Below, piece by piece: positions 1 to 7,660 of a stretch of 22,129 nt of DNA; position 1 is the first letter of the stretch, and each line of letters opens with the position of its first letter. A program made the translations under genes and the position numbers. Origin of the DNA: a virus; IMG/VR virus record IMGVR_UViG_3300018417_000080, positions 1 through 22,129 of that record, one strand, 5' to 3'. The notes beneath the pieces were generated by a model that was given only the letters and a program-made list of their open reading frames with translations, was not told where the DNA came from and did not search any database.

Positions 1-302
1 GAGTACCTTATTTCAGTTTCAAGTTTTGATTTGGGAAGAGAAAGATCCGTGTCTTTCGTTTCGAGTTTCCCTTTGAAAGTGAATTTGTTAACTTTGAATT
101 TGTATCCAGCTTCGTGGCTGTATCCATCAGTCATAGGACCGATTTCAAAATACAAATTATTGTCTGTCTTGTAGCCAACACGCAAATGGTTCACATCTTT
201 TGTGTAACGCCAGTCACGCATTTCGTATTCGTGTTTGTATTCGATGTATGGACCTGCGAACGCAGACATCGGTATGAGAAGAATTAAAAGTAAATATCGC
301 AC
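1..302 (-). CDS. Exported protein with outer-membrane-like beta repeats, 3' end cut by window edge
   Basis: I read this from the sequence: a GTG start at 302-300 follows AAGGAGG at ideal spacing, and the frame stays open for 100 codons to the window edge. The ATG two bases upstream runs into a stop after six codons, so GTG is the likely start. The N-terminus (VRYLLLILLIPMSAFAGPY) is a compact signal peptide with a probable cut after AFA. The mature part alternates polar and aromatic residues (YIEYKHEYEMRDWRY, LRVGYKTDNNLYFEIG), as in outer-membrane beta strands, and has few Cys. That suggests a small porin-like or OmpA-like barrel, but the fold is inferred and the C-terminus is missing. It is the downstream-most member of the exported cluster that starts at 4501. 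Confidence 0.7.
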   Translation of the reverse strand, partial: MRYLLLILLIPMSAFAGPYIEYKHEYEMRDWRYTKDVNHLRVGYKTDNNLYFEIGPMTDGYSHEAGYKFKVNKFTFKGKLETKDTDLSLPKSKLETEIRY

Positions 303-371
303 ATGTCCTCCTTATCGTATTGGACAATAATATTTAACCTTCGGTCTTCTAGTTTTTGTTATTTTACAATT

Positions 372-379
372 AATTTATA
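372..379 (-). promoter_or_regulatory. Possible T4-type late promoter box TATAAATT
   Basis: The minus strand reads TATAAATT, one mismatch from TATAAATA, about 70 bases before the GTG at 302. It lies in a very AT-rich gap (303-402), so chance is a real alternative. Confidence 0.35.
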
Positions 380-402
380 ATTAATTTTTTATTAAGGAGT
401 TG

Positions 403-612
403 TTAAATCGAAAGGTCGTCTTGCATAATCGATTTGATTATATTTTTATTGAGTTGAATCTCTTGGCCGAGATGACTTTCTAATCTAACCCAACTGTTTC
501 CGTTATTCATAATCCAGTCAATTGCTTGACCTGGTTTTAAACAATTTACTTCATCACCAATTAATTTGCCAAACATCACAGCACCATCATTAAATAGTAC
601 CTTGACTCTCAT
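403..612 (-). CDS. Small beta-rich protein, paralogue A of three
   Basis: Function unknown. This 69-residue protein starts with MRVKVLFNDGAVMFGKL and shares its layout with the proteins at 621-818 and 1048-1236: a short strand, (N/D)G, a G in the next strand, a central D-x-(I/V)-(M/L)-N segment, a V strand, a G turn, then LNK/aK-x-x-(I/V)-x-x-I near the end. This recalls the bacterial DUF6812-type small proteins (xDG...GE...RLSDxLND...I), a match made from memory. There is no signal peptide or TM segment. AGGA precedes the ATG. It is the most diverged of the three; the central ND-R motif has become MNNGNSW. Confidence 0.75.
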   Translation of the reverse strand: MRVKVLFNDGAVMFGKLIGDEVNCLKPGQAIDWIMNNGNSWVRLESHLGQEIQLNKNIIKSIMQDDLSI

Positions 613-620
613 TAGTGTTC

Positions 621-818
621 CTACGTTTCGTTGATGTAAGCTATCTGCCCCTTTGCAATAATCTGTTCTTTTCCAGCGCGTCTTACCGGCAAGATATTTC
701 TGTCATCATTCATTACATCAGATAAGCGGTCACCCGTTGGAAGAAAGACTTCGCAATCTAACCAACGGGAGCCGTCATTCATTGTAATGCATACTGTAAT
801 TATTTTACTCTCTATCAT
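621..818 (-). CDS. Small DUF6812-like protein, paralogue B of three
   Basis: This 65-residue cytosolic-looking protein carries the clearest family signature: MNDGSRW, then LPTGDRLSDVMNDDRNILPV, then AKGQIAYI at the C-terminus. The RLSDxxNDDR core is what suggests DUF6812 of bacteria, whose function I do not know. It sits three bases after the stop of the membrane-anchored protein at 822-1046 and nine bases before paralogue A. It is therefore the middle of a small operon A-B-TM-C. AGGAT lies very close to the ATG. Confidence 0.75.
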   Translation of the reverse strand: MIESKIITVCITMNDGSRWLDCEVFLPTGDRLSDVMNDDRNILPVRRAGKEQIIAKGQIAYINET

Positions 819-821
819 ATC

Positions 822-1046
822 CTAAACCATTAGAAAGCCTATTAAGAAACCAATATTGAGACCAACGAGACATACGACCAAAAATTGTCTTTTGAATTCT
901 TCTAAGGATTCCATTTCTGCAACACCTTCAGAATACTCAGTTTTCACTGCAACAATTTCGTATTGTGTATTTTGAATTTCTTCGTATACACTTGCCTCGT
1001 TTGGGCTCGGCCTATAAATGTCTTTTAGGTAAACTACATTCTCCAT
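822..1046 (-). CDS. Small tail-anchored membrane protein
   Basis: Function unknown. The 74-residue protein has a hydrophilic acidic N-terminal half (about residues 1-50, with YRPSPNEASVYEEIQ) and one C-terminal hydrophobic segment, FLVVCLVGLNIGFLIGFLMV, that ends the protein. This predicts a single-span tail-anchored inner-membrane protein with a cytoplasmic domain. I chose ATG at 1046 because AAGG lies 8 bases upstream; an in-frame GTG at 1055 would add three residues but crowds the same ribosome site. It lies between two members of the DUF6812-like paralogue family, so an interaction with them is plausible but is inference. Confidence 0.7.
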   Translation of the reverse strand: MENVVYLKDIYRPSPNEASVYEEIQNTQYEIVAVKTEYSEGVAEMESLEEFKRQFLVVCLVGLNIGFLIGFLMV

Positions 1047-1047
1047 G

Positions 1048-1236
1048 TCATTCACCTTCTTTTACAATATAGGCTACCGCTTCCTTATTAAGCTGTAGTA
1101 ACGTACCATTAGGTCTTGCAACTTCGATGAACATACGATCATCATTTAATACATCGCCTAGTAAAGTATCATCACCACCTACTTCTAAATTACCAACTAA
1201 CGAATACCCATTATGAAACGTGATTTTGACTCTCAT
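1048..1236 (-). CDS. Small DUF6812-like protein, paralogue C of three
   Basis: This 62-residue protein begins MRVKITFHNGYSLVGNLE and contains LGDVLNDDRMFIEVA and LNKEAVAYIVKEGE. It aligns end to end with the proteins at 621-818 and 403-612, and its start MRVK is nearly the same as that of paralogue A. A strong AAGGAGG lies 5 bases before the ATG. It is the first of the four-gene set that also holds the tail-anchored protein. Function unknown; no signal peptide. Confidence 0.75.
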   Translation of the reverse strand: MRVKITFHNGYSLVGNLEVGGDDTLLGDVLNDDRMFIEVARPNGTLLQLNKEAVAYIVKEGE

Positions 1237-1246
1237 TCCAGCCTCC

Positions 1247-1705
1247 TTAATCGGCTAGAGGATTGTCAAGCACCTGTTGAATTTTCTTGTTCAAGCGGTC
1301 ATCTAACGCTTCAATTTGTAAACGAGTGTCGGTCTGTAGACTTTCCCTCTTTGTATCAAATCTCTCTGAAGCACGGTCAATCATATCTTTAACCTTATCT
1401 TCCATCTCTCGATTCTGGTCTTCAATTCGATCTACATTCTTTTCCATCCGATTGAAATCATCTCTCAGATCGTTCTTAATGCTTCTCGAATAATCGATCG
1501 CTTCATCGAGCTTAGTCTCGATAACGTTATTACGTGCCTCAATTTCTCCTACATCAATATTCTGGATGATCTCCTTCATATCCATATAATCTTTATAGAA
1601 CTCAAAGACTCCCCAACTGGCTCCACCCAGAGTACTTAACGCAGTGAGAAGAATCATCATCTTCCCGCCTTTGAAGGTCATGCCCCCAAATTCAACTTCT
1701 GCCAT
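1247..1705 (-). CDS. Membrane-anchored coiled-coil protein
   Basis: The 152-residue protein has a short N-terminal tail with FGGMTFKGG, one hydrophobic span at about residues 16-36 (MMILLTALSTLGGASWGVFEFY), then a long highly charged helix from about residue 45 to the end (DDFNRMEKNVDRIEDQNREM...) with heptad-like spacing, so a coiled coil is likely. The topology fits a bitopic membrane protein with an extended periplasmic or cytoplasmic rod. Phage spanin or lysis roles share such shapes, but nothing here proves one and no partner lipoprotein is visible. It precedes the paralogue C gene by ten bases. Confidence 0.7.
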   Translation of the reverse strand: MAEVEFGGMTFKGGKMMILLTALSTLGGASWGVFEFYKDYMDMKEIIQNIDVGEIEARNNVIETKLDEAIDYSRSIKNDLRDDFNRMEKNVDRIEDQNREMEDKVKDMIDRASERFDTKRESLQTDTRLQIEALDDRLNKKIQQVLDNPLAD

Positions 1706-1724
1706 TTTCCTCTATCCTTTTTTA

Positions 1725-2177
1725 CTAGTCGTCGCTATCGTCTTCAAACTGTAGAGCTTTCAGATTTGCGACTTCTTGTTGAAGTTTCTGGATCTCCAAT
1801 CTTCTCCTTTCAAGTTCAAGTTTATAGAGTGTATTGCAATTAATACGCTCTTTTGGTTTATCTAACGGTATTGTAAGTTTTGCATAAACACCAACATCCC
1901 TTACAAAATCGTTTTGATTCCAACCATCTGGGTTAATGTAGGTAGTACTACTACCAAACCCATTATCGTACGGACCGTTCTGATTAAGAATACCTACAAC
2001 TCCGAATTCCATAGTGGTTGCACCACCAATAGCATTCTGGCATTCAAACTGTCCAGATCTTACACGATCAGATGCGTAACTACCAGGTGAATTGGGCAAT
2101 GCTAAGTTCACTGAACTCGACTGGGCCCTTACCCCTTGTGTCACTATCATCAATATTAGAATAACAAAAATTCGCAT
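1725..2177 (-). CDS. Exported protein with C-terminal coiled coil
   Basis: The 150-residue protein has a signal peptide (MRIFVILILMIVTQGVRAQ, cut probably after RA). A Ser/Asn/Gly-rich domain follows (CQNAIGGATTMEFGVVGIL, about residues 46-65), and then a charged helix (LELERRRLEIQKLQQEVANLKAL) ending in an acidic tail. Two Cys (CQNAI and NCNTLY) could pair after export. I have seen this type of protein in marine T4-like phages, where neighbours are sometimes annotated as curli- or surface-related; that is recollection, not a search. Function unknown. Confidence 0.7.
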   Translation of the reverse strand: MRIFVILILMIVTQGVRAQSSSVNLALPNSPGSYASDRVRSGQFECQNAIGGATTMEFGVVGILNQNGPYDNGFGSSTTYINPDGWNQNDFVRDVGVYAKLTIPLDKPKERINCNTLYKLELERRRLEIQKLQQEVANLKALQFEDDSDD

Positions 2178-2180
2178 AAT

Positions 2181-2561
2181 TTAATCTTTTATCTTTGAAC
2201 AAATCCTCGATGCAATCGTGGCTCGACTCACGTCAGCTTTCAATAATTTACTCTTAGAGCAAATATAGACTGCCTTATGTTTATCTTTCTCACGTATGTA
2301 TATGTCGATTCTTTTTTTCTCAAGATAATCAATCTGCTGAATTTTTTCAGTAGTGGCAAACGGAACCTTTTTCCAGTCTTCCGTCCACACACTAAATTCA
2401 TAATATTGAATATCTTCTCGCTTATTAAACAGTTCCATCTCCGTATGTAAAACACCTGGCACATACGATAATTGCAACCTTGGATAGGTTGGAAGGAATT
2501 CGTGGGCAGAAGCAGTCTGCCCACCAATCCCTAGCATAATTAATAGCATAATATAACGCAT
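2181..2561 (-). CDS. Exported protein resembling a periplasmic pilus-chaperone N-terminal (Ig-like) domain
   Basis: This 126-residue protein has a signal peptide ending at TASA before HEFLPTYPRL. The mature part reads like the first Ig-like domain of PapD-type chaperones: a strand with LQLSYVPG, then MELFNKREDIQYYEFSVWTEDWKKVPF, then KIQQIDYLEKKRIDIYIR. This matches the chaperone pattern of N (N/R) followed by a Y-x-x-x-V strand and a late kR-x-(D/R)-(I/V) strand. The second chaperone domain is absent. Two Cys (YICSK, RICSK) near the end may form a disulfide. The next gene encodes a secreted pilin-like protein, which supports the pairing. The family assignment is tentative. Confidence 0.6.
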   Translation of the reverse strand: MRYIMLLIMLGIGGQTASAHEFLPTYPRLQLSYVPGVLHTEMELFNKREDIQYYEFSVWTEDWKKVPFATTEKIQQIDYLEKKRIDIYIREKDKHKAVYICSKSKLLKADVSRATIASRICSKIKD

Positions 2562-2583
2562 TAGATTTCGATCCCTTTTACCT

Positions 2584-3087
2584 TTAAATTGCGATGCATT
2601 CTGCAGTTACAGAAGCCTGGTACTGACCGCCAGGAAACGCTTTGTCATATCCATAATCAGCTTCAGACTGAATCTTAAACCAGGTTGAACCTGCTACAGT
2701 CAAAGCTACTTCTGTGATATTATCGTAGTATATCTTGTCGGTATCATACGATGACATTGTCGCGTCTGAAACTTGGTCAACTGTTACCCAGTTACTCCAA
2801 GCTACAGTGTCGTTCAGCTCAGGACTTGATGTAAAAGCATCCGGTGCAGTAATGCGAGCCTTATAATAGCTTGCTTGTACTACATCGTACCTTACGACTG
2901 GGTGAATACCACCGTCATCTGGCTTAGTGCTCAACTTTGATGCGGATGGGTTACCATACACACCCAGCGTGTCCTGTGTCACAACGCATTTAGAGGCCAC
3001 GTTACCAGTAACGGGGATCTCTTCTGCCATAGCCGAAAAACAAAAGGACGCGAGTGCAACACATGATATAAGTGTTTTATTGAACAT
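2584..3087 (-). CDS. Exported pilin-like / spore-coat-U-like protein
   Basis: The 167-residue protein has a classic signal peptide (MFNKTLISCVALASFCFSAMA, cut before EEIPVTG). The mature chain opens IPVTGNVASKCVVTQDTLGVYG and ends YQASVTAECIAI. One Cys in the first strand and one four residues from the end match the layout of secreted pilins and spore-coat-U/Csu proteins, where a final beta strand completes the fold. The middle is rich in T, S, Y and D. GGGAG precedes the ATG. It lies directly upstream, in transcription order, of the chaperone-like protein, so a minimal chaperone-subunit pair is possible. Assembly into a fibre is inference; no usher is present here. Confidence 0.65.
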   Translation of the reverse strand: MFNKTLISCVALASFCFSAMAEEIPVTGNVASKCVVTQDTLGVYGNPSASKLSTKPDDGGIHPVVRYDVVQASYYKARITAPDAFTSSPELNDTVAWSNWVTVDQVSDATMSSYDTDKIYYDNITEVALTVAGSTWFKIQSEADYGYDKAFPGGQYQASVTAECIAI

Positions 3088-3108
3088 GTTGTTCTCCCTT
3101 TATGAGTT

Positions 3109-3990
3109 TTATTTGGCATATTGTAGCATAATCATCTGTTGGTGCAATAACTCTTGCGCCATGCCCACTCTCAACCCTCTAGTGTTGTTGGGAAGTTTTG
3201 CATCCTTCAAGACCACTCCTTCAGGATACTCCCCACCAACGAGAGCTCTTTGATAACTCATTGGTAAACTCGCGATCATCTGCTGATGCATCAGAATTTG
3301 TTCCATAGAGAACTCACTCTGTTCAGAGATACCGAGAATGTTTTCCAAGAGCTCATCGATTTCTTCTACTTGTTCTAAAGCTTTCTTTCGAGCTTTCTCT
3401 TTCTCGTCTTCTTTCTGTTGCCTTAGATTGGCTTTACGATCCAACTCGTCTTGAACATAGTCCTCATCGAGTGGATCAATTACTTCTACCTCGGTTAGAT
3501 CAACCACAAATGGGTCAATATAACCAGGGCATTCTGGATTCGTTTGTGGGTCAAAGCAAGGATCATAAGAATATGTGTAATATACTTCTGGACTTTGAAC
3601 TGTTCCAAAACCTTCGGGTTCGATTGATCCCCTTCCCCAATAAGATATGTCGATACCGTCAACAATCGGAACGACCTTAGTAATCGTATTACCAGGCAAT
3701 CCAGTCCAGTCATCTGTTTCTCTAAAGATATAACCCGCTCCTCGTGCGTTTTCGTTCTGCACGTGCACGAGCAAATAATCTTCTTGGTTTTTGACTACGG
3801 TATATTGATATGTGACCTGATTGACTCTCAAGCCTGCTTGTTGCGGTAGCACATTTGTCATAACCCAGTTTAACCCAAACTGAGCTGCATTTGATGTAGT
3901 GCCGTATTGAGGAGCTATGTCTGGATTAGAGTAAGAGTAGGATGAGCAAACTAGCAACGCCAGCGCCACCCAAAAGTGTCTTAGTACCAT
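3109..3990 (-). CDS. Large exported protein with N-terminal beta domain and C-terminal helical region
   Basis: The 293-residue protein starts with a signal peptide (MVLRHFWVALALLVCSSYSYS). Residues 25-165 look beta-rich and Trp/Tyr-rich (FGLNWVMTNVLPQQAGL, YIFRETDDWTGLPG) and end with a Cys-containing segment PCFDPQTNPECPGYIDPF. A linker of acidic residues leads to a charged helix (RKANLRQQKEDEKEKARKKALEQVEEIDELLENIL, about 186-220 by content). A Met/Gln-rich helical end (MEQILMHQQMIASLPMSYQ) follows. AAGGAG stands 7 bases before the ATG. Its first 65 bases overlap the end of the next gene up. Probably a periplasmic or surface protein; function unknown. Confidence 0.75.
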   Translation of the reverse strand: MVLRHFWVALALLVCSSYSYSNPDIAPQYGTTSNAAQFGLNWVMTNVLPQQAGLRVNQVTYQYTVVKNQEDYLLVHVQNENARGAGYIFRETDDWTGLPGNTITKVVPIVDGIDISYWGRGSIEPEGFGTVQSPEVYYTYSYDPCFDPQTNPECPGYIDPFVVDLTEVEVIDPLDEDYVQDELDRKANLRQQKEDEKEKARKKALEQVEEIDELLENILGISEQSEFSMEQILMHQQMIASLPMSYQRALVGGEYPEGVVLKDAKLPNNTRGLRVGMAQELLHQQMIMLQYAK

Positions 3991-4501
3991 CGCTCATCTC
4001 CTTATCGTCTTTGTTTAACACGGGCTTTAGATCTTCATCTAATGACCATGCCTCCTTTGCCTCGAGTCCTATCTTACCATCATAAGGACAGGGAGTACCC
4101 GCCATCATCATAGCATCGAAGACTCTTCGGTCTTGACATAACGTAGATACAGCTGCAACCTTCATACCCATATCATATAATGTTTTTGAGAGCTTTAGAC
4201 GCTCGCAGTTTTCATCTGTGACCTGGGTTCCAGTCGAGATACCAAGTATCTGTGTTTGGATTGCCCCAGCAACACCAAATGTACAAAGATCAGAGTTGGA
4301 TGTGTTTATTGTTGGCGTAATTGCCGATGCGGGAGGCGACTTGAGTGTCGTCGATGTTGTAGAGTTTGTCGTCACTGTACTATCAGTTATCGATTCAGTT
4401 CTGATGGTATCATCAGGTACTGTGGTATCGGTAGTTGTAGTTTCTTCCGCATTTGCAAAAACAATAAAACAAAATCCAAAAACTAATAATAAGATTCGCA
4501 T
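3926..4501 (-). CDS. Exported Thr-rich protein with C-terminal hydrophobic tail
   Basis: The 191-residue protein has a signal peptide (MRILLLVFGFCFIVFANA), a low-complexity Thr/Ser stretch (TTTTDTTVPDDT, residues 21-65), a conserved-looking central domain with four Cys (SDLCTFGVAGAIQTQ, NCERLKLSKTLYDMG, LCQDRRVF, GTPCPYDGKIG) and a C-terminal membrane segment (GGAGVASLLILLLL). The even Cys number suits disulfides in the periplasm. The central domain looks like one I recall in marine T4-like phages. It is the first gene after a perfect late promoter box at 4537-4544, so it likely heads the exported cluster. Function unknown. Confidence 0.75.
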   Translation of the reverse strand: MRILLLVFGFCFIVFANAEETTTTDTTVPDDTIRTESITDSTVTTNSTTSTTLKSPPASAITPTINTSNSDLCTFGVAGAIQTQILGISTGTQVTDENCERLKLSKTLYDMGMKVAAVSTLCQDRRVFDAMMMAGTPCPYDGKIGLEAKEAWSLDEDLKPVLNKDDKEMSDGTKTLLGGAGVASLLILLLL

Positions 4502-4536: not shown

Positions 4537-4544
4537 TATTTATA
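4537..4544 (-). promoter_or_regulatory. T4-type late promoter TATAAATA
   Basis: This is an exact TATAAATA on the minus strand, in the short gap between two genes, 36 bases before the ATG at 4501. It fits the T4 late promoter, recognised by the phage late sigma factor (gp55 type). It would drive the exported-protein cluster. Confidence 0.8.
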
Positions 4545-6317: not shown

Positions 6318-6325
6318 TATTTATA
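6318..6325 (-). promoter_or_regulatory. T4-type late promoter TATAAATA
   Basis: An exact TATAAATA on the minus strand ends 37 bases before the ATG at 6281 and overlaps the last codons and stop of iscU. It would start transcription of the structural protein. Confidence 0.8.
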
Positions 6326-6701
6326 AATGCTTGTCTTGATAGTCCTTTATCGCAGCTTTGATCGCATCTTCTGCAAGGACACTACAGTGGATTTTGACTG
6401 GGGGGAGGCAGAGTTCTTCTGCGATGTCGGTGTTTCTAATATCTGCAGCTTCATCAAGACTGCGACCTTTAACCCATTCGGTAAGAAGTGAGGAAGATGC
6501 GATAGCACTTCCGCATCCGTAGGTTTTAAACCTAGCATCTTCGATAATTCCATCATCATTTACCTTAATTTGTAATCTCATTACATCACCACAAGCCGGG
6601 GCACCAACCATGCCAGTGCCCACGTCTTGATCGTCTTCATCGAAGCGACCCACATTGCGTGGGTTTTCGTAATGATCTAATACTTTTTCTGAATATGCCA
6701 T
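6321..6701 (-). CDS. iscU: Iron-sulfur cluster assembly scaffold IscU
   Basis: The 126-residue protein is a full-length IscU. It is the scaffold on which the cysteine desulfurase IscS builds 2Fe-2S and 4Fe-4S clusters, later passed on with HscA/HscB help. All key residues are present: Cys37 and Asp39 (GAPACGDVM), Cys63 (TYGCGSAIASSS), His105 and Cys106 (KIHCSVLAEDA), plus the HscA-binding LPPVK motif at 99-103. From memory of E. coli IscU, the identity by eye is about four-fifths, without indels before the last residues. This argues for uptake from a gammaproteobacterium. An extra Cys98 (ELCLPPVK) lies next to the chaperone motif. No other isc gene is in the window. It has a late promoter box immediately upstream and no visible ribosome site. 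Confidence 0.97.
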   Translation of the reverse strand: MAYSEKVLDHYENPRNVGRFDEDDQDVGTGMVGAPACGDVMRLQIKVNDDGIIEDARFKTYGCGSAIASSSLLTEWVKGRSLDEAADIRNTDIAEELCLPPVKIHCSVLAEDAIKAAIKDYQDKHL

Positions 6702-6706
6702 TCAGT

Positions 6707-6714
6707 TATTTATA
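6707..6714 (-). promoter_or_regulatory. T4-type late promoter TATAAATA directly before iscU
   Basis: An exact TATAAATA on the minus strand ends five bases before the iscU ATG. With the usual late start about six bases after the box, the transcript would begin at or near the A of the ATG. No AGGAG-like site separates the two. Confidence 0.65.
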
Positions 6715-7347
6715 TTAGAACCTCTTAGTTAGCATCACAACTGCAGACTTCTCATCTGCAATACCATCTTCACCTTCGAATTGACGATAGCCGAAGGTAG
6801 CATCTACACCTTCAACATCGACAGTCTTGCTGATCATATAGTGTCGACCAACTGTATCGAAATCACCAACGGTTAGGTCAGCAACACCAAACAGGTCTAC
6901 ACCAAGTTCCATGTAATCTGGAGCTTCATCGAGGCCCTTGTAGTAACGAGCTGCAATAGCCTTATACTCTACTTGAAACCCTACTTCTTCGACATCCAAA
7001 GCTGATTCTTCGAAATCAGTAAAACCAGTCAAAGATGAGTAGTTATAATCGATGTATGCAACACCGACCTTCAGATCTTCGCCAAGATTGAAGTTTTTGG
7101 CAATCGTGAGATCGTATTCCAGCTCAACATCTGAGCCATAATCTACTTGACTAGCCCAAACCTGAGCAAAGAAACCTTCATGTACGGCATGCAATTCACC
7201 AGATACTGCAGCGTTACCTGCATTCTGAGATACCCCACGAAAAATGTAGTTGCTTCCCAAAGAAACCGATCCACCTAACTCCATAGCTTGAGCAGACATC
7301 CCGATTGAACACATAGCCAATACTAGCATTAACTTTAAATTTTTCAT
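6715..7347 (-). CDS. Outer-membrane protein of the TIGR02001 (Gcw_chp) type
   Basis: I place the start at 7347 because the protein from there (210 residues) begins with a standard signal peptide (MKNLKLMLVLAMCSIGMSAQAME) after GGAAA; an open frame extends 33 codons further up but has no such signal. The mature N-terminus ELGGSVSLGSNYIFRGVSQNAGNAAVSGEL, read in parts, is the hallmark of this proteobacterial outer-membrane family (strand, Y-(I/V)-F-R-G-(V/I)-S-Q). The alternating strands and final VVMLTKRF with terminal Phe fit a barrel. Family members are poorly characterised. In the phage it may alter the host envelope, for uptake or for blocking other phages; that is inference. It ends 13 bases before iscU. 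Confidence 0.85.
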   Translation of the reverse strand: MKNLKLMLVLAMCSIGMSAQAMELGGSVSLGSNYIFRGVSQNAGNAAVSGELHAVHEGFFAQVWASQVDYGSDVELEYDLTIAKNFNLGEDLKVGVAYIDYNYSSLTGFTDFEESALDVEEVGFQVEYKAIAARYYKGLDEAPDYMELGVDLFGVADLTVGDFDTVGRHYMISKTVDVEGVDATFGYRQFEGEDGIADEKSAVVMLTKRF

Positions 7348-7429
7348 GTTTTTTCCTTTTGTTGAAATGAAAGCCGAGTTTTTAACCTCGGAAAAGATAT
7401 TTAGACAAAAATGAGACAAAATTGAGGGA

Positions 7430-7660
7430 TTATGAATTTTTTTCATTTAGGGACTCAAAGTAGAGTCGAAGGAAGGTTTTGCGAAAGAGTGCCAGAATGG
7501 TGAATGTCACGGTGAGGAATATGGAGGTAGTGAACGCAGACCACTCTTGTTCGAATGCTATTGCAATCAATATGAAATTGATGGGGATATTGGTCAGCAT
7601 TCCCACAGACGTATCTGCGACAGCCTCTTTGAATGCCCTAAGAGTTTTCTGGTAGGTCAT
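7430..7660 (-). CDS. Small two-TM membrane protein (DUF7220-like)
   Basis: The 76-residue protein has an amphipathic N-terminus (LRAFKEAVADTSVGMLTNIP), two hydrophobic spans (INFILIAIAFEQ and FTTSIFLTVTFTILALF) and a basic end (RKTFLRLYFESL). This matches a widespread group of small phage membrane proteins (E-x(4)-(T/V)-x-(V/I)-G-(F/M) start, R-x(3)-R-(R/L)-x-F-E end) that I know as DUF7220-like. The function is unknown. It overlaps the upstream gene by 23 bases, so translation may be coupled. Confidence 0.75.
   Translation of the reverse strand: MTYQKTLRAFKEAVADTSVGMLTNIPINFILIAIAFEQEWSAFTTSIFLTVTFTILALFRKTFLRLYFESLNEKNS

Follow-up and report, generated by a model that had tools for sequence, protein, structure and literature searches.

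The closest precedent in kind for the genes considered here is the curli (type VIII secretion) cluster of pelagiphages (PMC7029224, PMC9599517), which resembles them, as they are read below, in being a phage-borne, co-inherited fibre cluster for an infected marine host, in being common to unrelated phage families and in having an unproven function. The genes in question form a six-gene operon within the viral record IMGVR_UViG_3300018417_000080 of IMG/VR, whose 22,129 bases are termed here the window. Operon and curli cluster differ in that their proteins are unrelated, in that the fibre made by the former would be of the pilin rather than the amyloid type, and in that the operon has no regulator genes. 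With a second group of systems, the chaperone-usher pili (FimA/FimC/FimD; the archaic Csu system; Caf1M/Caf1), the operon shares a predicted immunoglobulin (Ig)-like subunit whose N-terminal segment, which contains a glycine and is followed by a cysteine, resembles a donor strand, and an adjacent gene for a PapD-superfamily, chaperone-like protein with a predicted F-G disulphide of the kind known from the Caf1M class; both proteins carry Sec signals. Unlike those pili, the phage module has no usher gene in the 20 carrier records searched, has a one-domain chaperone, shows no sequence match to the Pfam pilin, chaperone or usher families, and is phage-borne, with a late promoter and four unrelated partner genes. 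The reading proposed here, to which a probability of roughly one half is assigned, is that this late operon directs the making of a donor-strand fibre or coat, either within the envelope of the infected cell or on its surface.

The operon lies on the minus strand, from position 4501 down to 1247; its genes are termed here A (g3926), B (g3109), P (g2584, pilin-like), C (g2181, chaperone-like), D (g1725) and E (g1247):

4537..4544, minus strand: late promoter box TATAAATA, T4-type, exact match
3926..4501, minus strand: gene A, 191 residues; signal peptide, Thr/Ser-rich linker, domain with four invariant cysteines, hydrophobic C-terminal tail
3109..3990, minus strand: gene B, 293 residues; secreted; N-terminal part beta-rich in appearance, C-terminal part charged and coiled
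2584..3087, minus strand: gene P, 167 residues; pilin-like; donor-strand-type N-terminus IPVTGNVASKCVV; invariant Cys34 and Cys164
2181..2561, minus strand: gene C, 126 residues; single PapD-like domain, periplasmic chaperone-like; Cys101 and Cys121 link strands F and G
1725..2177, minus strand: gene D, 150 residues; secreted; two short beta segments, then a C-terminal helix; invariant Cys46 and Cys114
1247..1705, minus strand: gene E, 152 residues; N-terminal transmembrane (TM) segment, long periplasmic coiled coil, invariant C-terminal DNPL motif

That the genes form one system, as a preliminary description of this DNA had proposed, is supported by their strict synteny and co-inheritance. 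Scans of IMG/VR found at least 587 stretches with relatives of P and at least 565 with relatives of C; in fetched relatives with enough flanking sequence the genes are tightly packed in the order A-B-P-C-D-E, and all six occur in that order in 145 distinct loci. Loci were also fetched via D and via A, which removes the bias of P- or C-based fetching: among those with complete flanks, all six genes are present in 35/35 D-anchored loci and in 30 of the 33 A-anchored loci, the remaining three consisting of A-B-E or A-E. Across the 145 six-gene loci, pairwise gene distances are correlated (r 0.36-0.76; permutation maxima 0.07-0.15), B, C and E being among the more variable members. Of 112 distinct loci, at most 35 share any one further neighbouring gene family; genes 3-302, 403, 621, 822 and 1048 are present in a minority of relatives only. 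The conserved unit is thus the six genes from g3926 to g1247, including the TM gene g1247, and the five others are local additions. The borders drawn in the preliminary description, which had included the genes at 822 and 3-302 (given there as 1-302), are therefore too wide: its two TM genes, 822 and 1247, both have TM segments, but only the latter lies within the unit. Its suggestion that the unit is conserved in marine phages is borne out by the IMG/VR relatives of P, C, D and A. The gap between D and E holds one to three additional genes in about 30 loci. A protein of about 155 residues (MVEIAAALSMAGSAxNMIK..., with a C-terminal membrane segment) recurs at this place in loci L018, L019, L021, L029, L035, L055, L131, L143, L145 and L149.

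Late expression and export are indicated by several features. The g3926 ATG is preceded, at a distance of 36 bases, by an exact TATAAATA box; six exact boxes occur in the window, all on the minus (coding) strand, versus 1.2 expected, and no shuffle reached six. Of 164 distinct loci in relatives, 70 have such a box ahead of gene A, in most cases between -23 and -46, as against 2.6% of random positions. The open reading frames (ORFs) of the preliminary description are present at the coordinates given there, as is its exact late box at 4537. The proteins g3926, g3109, g2584, g2181, g1725 and 3-302 have clear N-terminal signal sequences; g1247 has an N-terminal TM segment followed by a coiled coil, and g822 a C-terminal TM segment without a signal peptide. 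A crude signal-peptide rule is satisfied by 93-99% of the A, B, P, C and D relatives versus 22% of control ORFs. Relatives of A have the hydrophobic C-terminal tail in 93% of cases, and the C-terminus of E is NPL in 157/159 proteins (N148, P149 and L150 being the invariant residues). Genes A and B overlap by 65 bases in the window and by about 68 in relatives. In one clade (L036-L041) the signal peptide of D contains a lipobox (ISSC), and D is probably a lipoprotein there.

The AlphaFold2 model of P has an Ig-like fold (predicted local distance difference test score, pLDDT, 93) in which residues 19-33 are unpaired. About 18 of its top 50 PDB fold matches are chaperone-usher pilins (CfaB, FimF, the PapG pilin domain, CsuA/B, FimG, Caf1). 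The unpaired segment, IPVTGNVASKCVV, may be set beside ITVNGKVVAKPCTV of FimG and ITIRGYVRDNGCSV of FimF from E. coli K-12: the IPVTGNV...C of P aligns to the ITVNGKV...C of FimG; Gly28 and Cys34 are invariant in 75/75 relatives, and the Val position is either Val or Ile. At the level of sequence, this N-terminal segment resembles the donor-strand layout of pilins. The model of C (pLDDT 90) is a single seven-stranded domain, and its Foldseek matches in the PDB are dominated by the PapD-like superfamily: the CEP192 PapD-like domain (4.7e-4), Caf1M (6.5e-4) and PapD (8.6e-4), followed by VAP MSP domains, SfaE, FimC and FaeE, with non-bacterial MSP/ASH domains among them; the best bacterial matches are Caf1M, PapD and FimC. 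The predicted fold is that of a PapD-like first chaperone domain. The two invariant cysteines of C sit on its last two strands, and an F-G disulphide at this position is that of Caf1M-type (FGL) chaperones. Both assignments made in the preliminary description are thus supported, that of 2181 as PapD-type through its fold and that of 2584 as pilin-like through its free N-terminus, its pilin-enriched fold matches and the FimG/FimF motif; unrelated folds or a failure to co-occur, which it had named among the refuting outcomes, are not what single-protein structure prediction and the genome-context search gave. On these models P and C are probably a pair of the pilin-chaperone type. Within the C family the predicted mature N-terminus is a histidine (AxA|H) in 248/357 proteins, a feature of histidine-brace copper proteins that the Vibrio homologs described below do not share.

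The operon is made up of two sub-modules, P-C-D and A-B-E, that are usually joined. This follows from their separate occurrence: P-C-D alone, in the same order and without A, B or E nearby, is found in Vibrio siphophages and T5-like Vibrio phages (9/9 examined), and A-B-E is found in pelagiphages and roseophages, where A (E 1e-36 to 1e-5) is followed by a large secreted protein and then by an E-like coiled coil with an NPL end. Each of the nine Vibrio loci gave the correct profile match for all three P-C-D genes, and profile-profile comparison of the Vibrio and operon families yielded E 1.2e-9 for P and E 6e-9 for C. The Vibrio genes lie after large tail-region genes and, where annotated, a holin and an endolysin come next. 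Tblastn searches of 50,697 phage records with P, C, B and D of the window gave no matches. Divergent forms of B and P used as queries were equally unproductive, whereas a D from locus L065, itself divergent, revealed the Vibrio relatives. Homologs of D occur in 181 Vibrio phage records; in the D-anchored loci with complete flanks and in the nine Vibrio loci, D is always accompanied by P and C. Among 84,980 species genomes, D was found at only five places; D is therefore a virus family. The carriers themselves belong to different phage groups: the T4-type capsid protein Gp23 is encoded in 6/13 large carrier records, plus one further carrier, and others have an HK97-type capsid, a different portal family and no Gp23.

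No standard family covers the six proteins (Pfam, NCBIfam, PHROG and PADLOC scans), and A-D gave no usable match in Pfam, NCBIfam, PADLOC or PDB sequence searches. The Vibrio homologs of P, C and D constitute phrog_25895, phrog_25455 and phrog_37374, and gene A matches phrog_20531, all annotated as of unknown function. A curli reading was dropped, there being no Pfam match to CsgG, CsgF or CsgA/B in the six window proteins or among the sequences aligned for P, C and D. Similarly, the pattern of strand, proline and helix in D recalls a TolC-like channel, for which Pfam gave E 0.065 in one member only, and which remains a guess. A search limited to open-access papers found no description of the module, so that, as far as that search shows, it is a previously undescribed set of phage-encoded, fibre-type genes with pilin-like parts and without an usher.

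Several observations weigh against a donor-strand fibre. The fold matches of P are individually weak (best E 2.9e-3, TM score about 0.4), and profile comparison of P with the E. coli Fim pilins matched the N-terminus only, with a probability of 21%. No second chaperone domain was found in C (126 residues; no PapD Pfam match in 75 members), which is also without a significant Pfam, NCBIfam or PDB sequence match. The usher (PF00577) was not found in 20 carrier records, many of which are perhaps fragments, using a search whose E. coli positive control worked. Finally, the three loci that have complete flanks and lack P-C-D imply that A, B and E are useful without the pilin. No sequence homology emerged when the profiles of C and FimC were compared, and sequence comparison by itself is no proof that P or C is homologous to the Fim proteins. 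With no usher found and no second domain in C, the module is therefore not a member of the chaperone-usher family; it lies outside that family as defined, but probably works like one.

The donor-strand mechanism envisaged here would operate as follows. Transcribed late from its own promoter, the operon would yield P, an incomplete Ig-like subunit, and C, both exported by Sec; in the periplasm C would cap P by lending it a strand, and P subunits would then polymerise through their N-terminal donor strands in the fashion of pilins (i.e., by donor-strand exchange). Because no usher was found, assembly or anchoring would have to depend on partners supplied by the phage itself, with D and the A-B-E set replacing both the usher and the second chaperone domain, though a host usher may serve instead. 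Since D is always found with P and C, it is proposed as probably an outer-membrane-side platform; E, with its inner-membrane anchor and long coiled coil, and A, with its hydrophobic tail, would tie the assembly to the envelope; and B, among the more variable members, is possibly exposed. Speculatively, the likeliest purpose is to modify the host surface as the cell dies late in infection, either blocking superinfecting phages or saving progeny from loss on debris. In its fullest form, which can be put forward only tentatively, the proposal is that of a new virus-encoded surface-fibre machine, consisting of an usher-less donor-strand pilin, a one-domain chaperone and a phage envelope complex of A, B, D and E, that is exchanged as a whole among unrelated phage families.

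Of the other explanations, the one that survives best, though it is unlikely, is a lysis or envelope-disruption module, in which A, B, E and D would bridge the envelope and P would oligomerise in the periplasm and, as infection ends, rupture the outer membrane. Lysis genes do occur nearby: a holin and an endolysin follow P-C-D in T5-like Vibrio phages, an M15 peptidase follows the E-like gene in HTVC023P, and CRP-207 has a lysozyme annotation. Moreover, E shares with the Rz/Rz1 spanins an N-terminal TM segment and a periplasmic coiled coil (that is, an i-spanin-like topology), and a lipobox-like motif is present in about 9% of D proteins. Unlike those spanins, E has no PHROG spanin match, and separate Rz-like spanins are present in the flanks of carrier loci L205 and L048, which counts against E as the phage's own spanin; a dedicated chaperone would also be unusual for a lysis factor, and P-C-D and A-B-E are also found apart. 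Somewhat less likely again is a non-fibrous superinfection-exclusion complex, plugging or masking receptors or the periplasmic path of DNA, for which the Ig domains would be mere binding modules. Expression late and after tail or virion structural genes, the usual site of surface-altering phage genes, is consistent with this, as is the variability of B, which would be expected of an interaction surface; it nevertheless leaves unexplained the invariant donor-strand motif of P and its PapD-like partner, and there is no match to a known defence family, the PADLOC anti-phage defence models giving weak coiled-coil matches of E only. That P, A or B are tail or head decorations processed at the membrane is improbable: the nearby g4884, two places upstream of the operon, does belong to a virion structural family (phrog_1645, E 1e-97), and the Vibrio triplet does follow large tail-region genes, but five of the six proteins carry Sec signals, whereas the cytoplasm is where virions of the T4 and HK97 types are assembled.

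Because this exported six-gene module occurs in at least several hundred viral contigs and is common to unrelated phages, infected marine bacteria would routinely receive previously undescribed, virus-made envelope proteins. If P and C work as predicted, they offer a minimal donor-strand assembly without an usher, useful for asking what ushers do; and if a donor-strand fibre is indeed made, it would be a second, unrelated fibre system of marine phages after curli, which would suggest that phages gain generally from coating the host as it dies. The module is already open to experiment, since its P-C-D version occurs in cultured Vibrio phages whose hosts are named.

A protein with an EF-hand-like motif and two membrane segments, perhaps a holin, is encoded near the module in 35 loci (e.g., L117:9541-9849) and directly after E in roseophage CRP-207 (gp72; L004:3870-4226). 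In the window, the module is directly followed by three tandem small paralogues of about 62-69 residues (403-612, 621-818 and 1048-1236, minus strand) with the pattern xNDDRxFIxVxxPxGxxxQLNK, and 15 related loci have a similar family after E. Two further genes on the minus strand encode outer-membrane-type proteins: 3-302, cut by the window end, matches Phage_OMP, a cyanophage outer-membrane beta-barrel-like family (PF24653, 34.3 bits; cut-off 27), and 6715-7446, also exported, is a TorF-family putative porin (TIGR02001, 70.7 bits; cut-off 47.15). Between the latter and the operon, at 6321-6701 on the minus strand, lies what appears by eye to be an IscU/NifU-like iron-sulphur scaffold, which has its own exact late box (6707-6714) and whose family occurs in 18 related loci.

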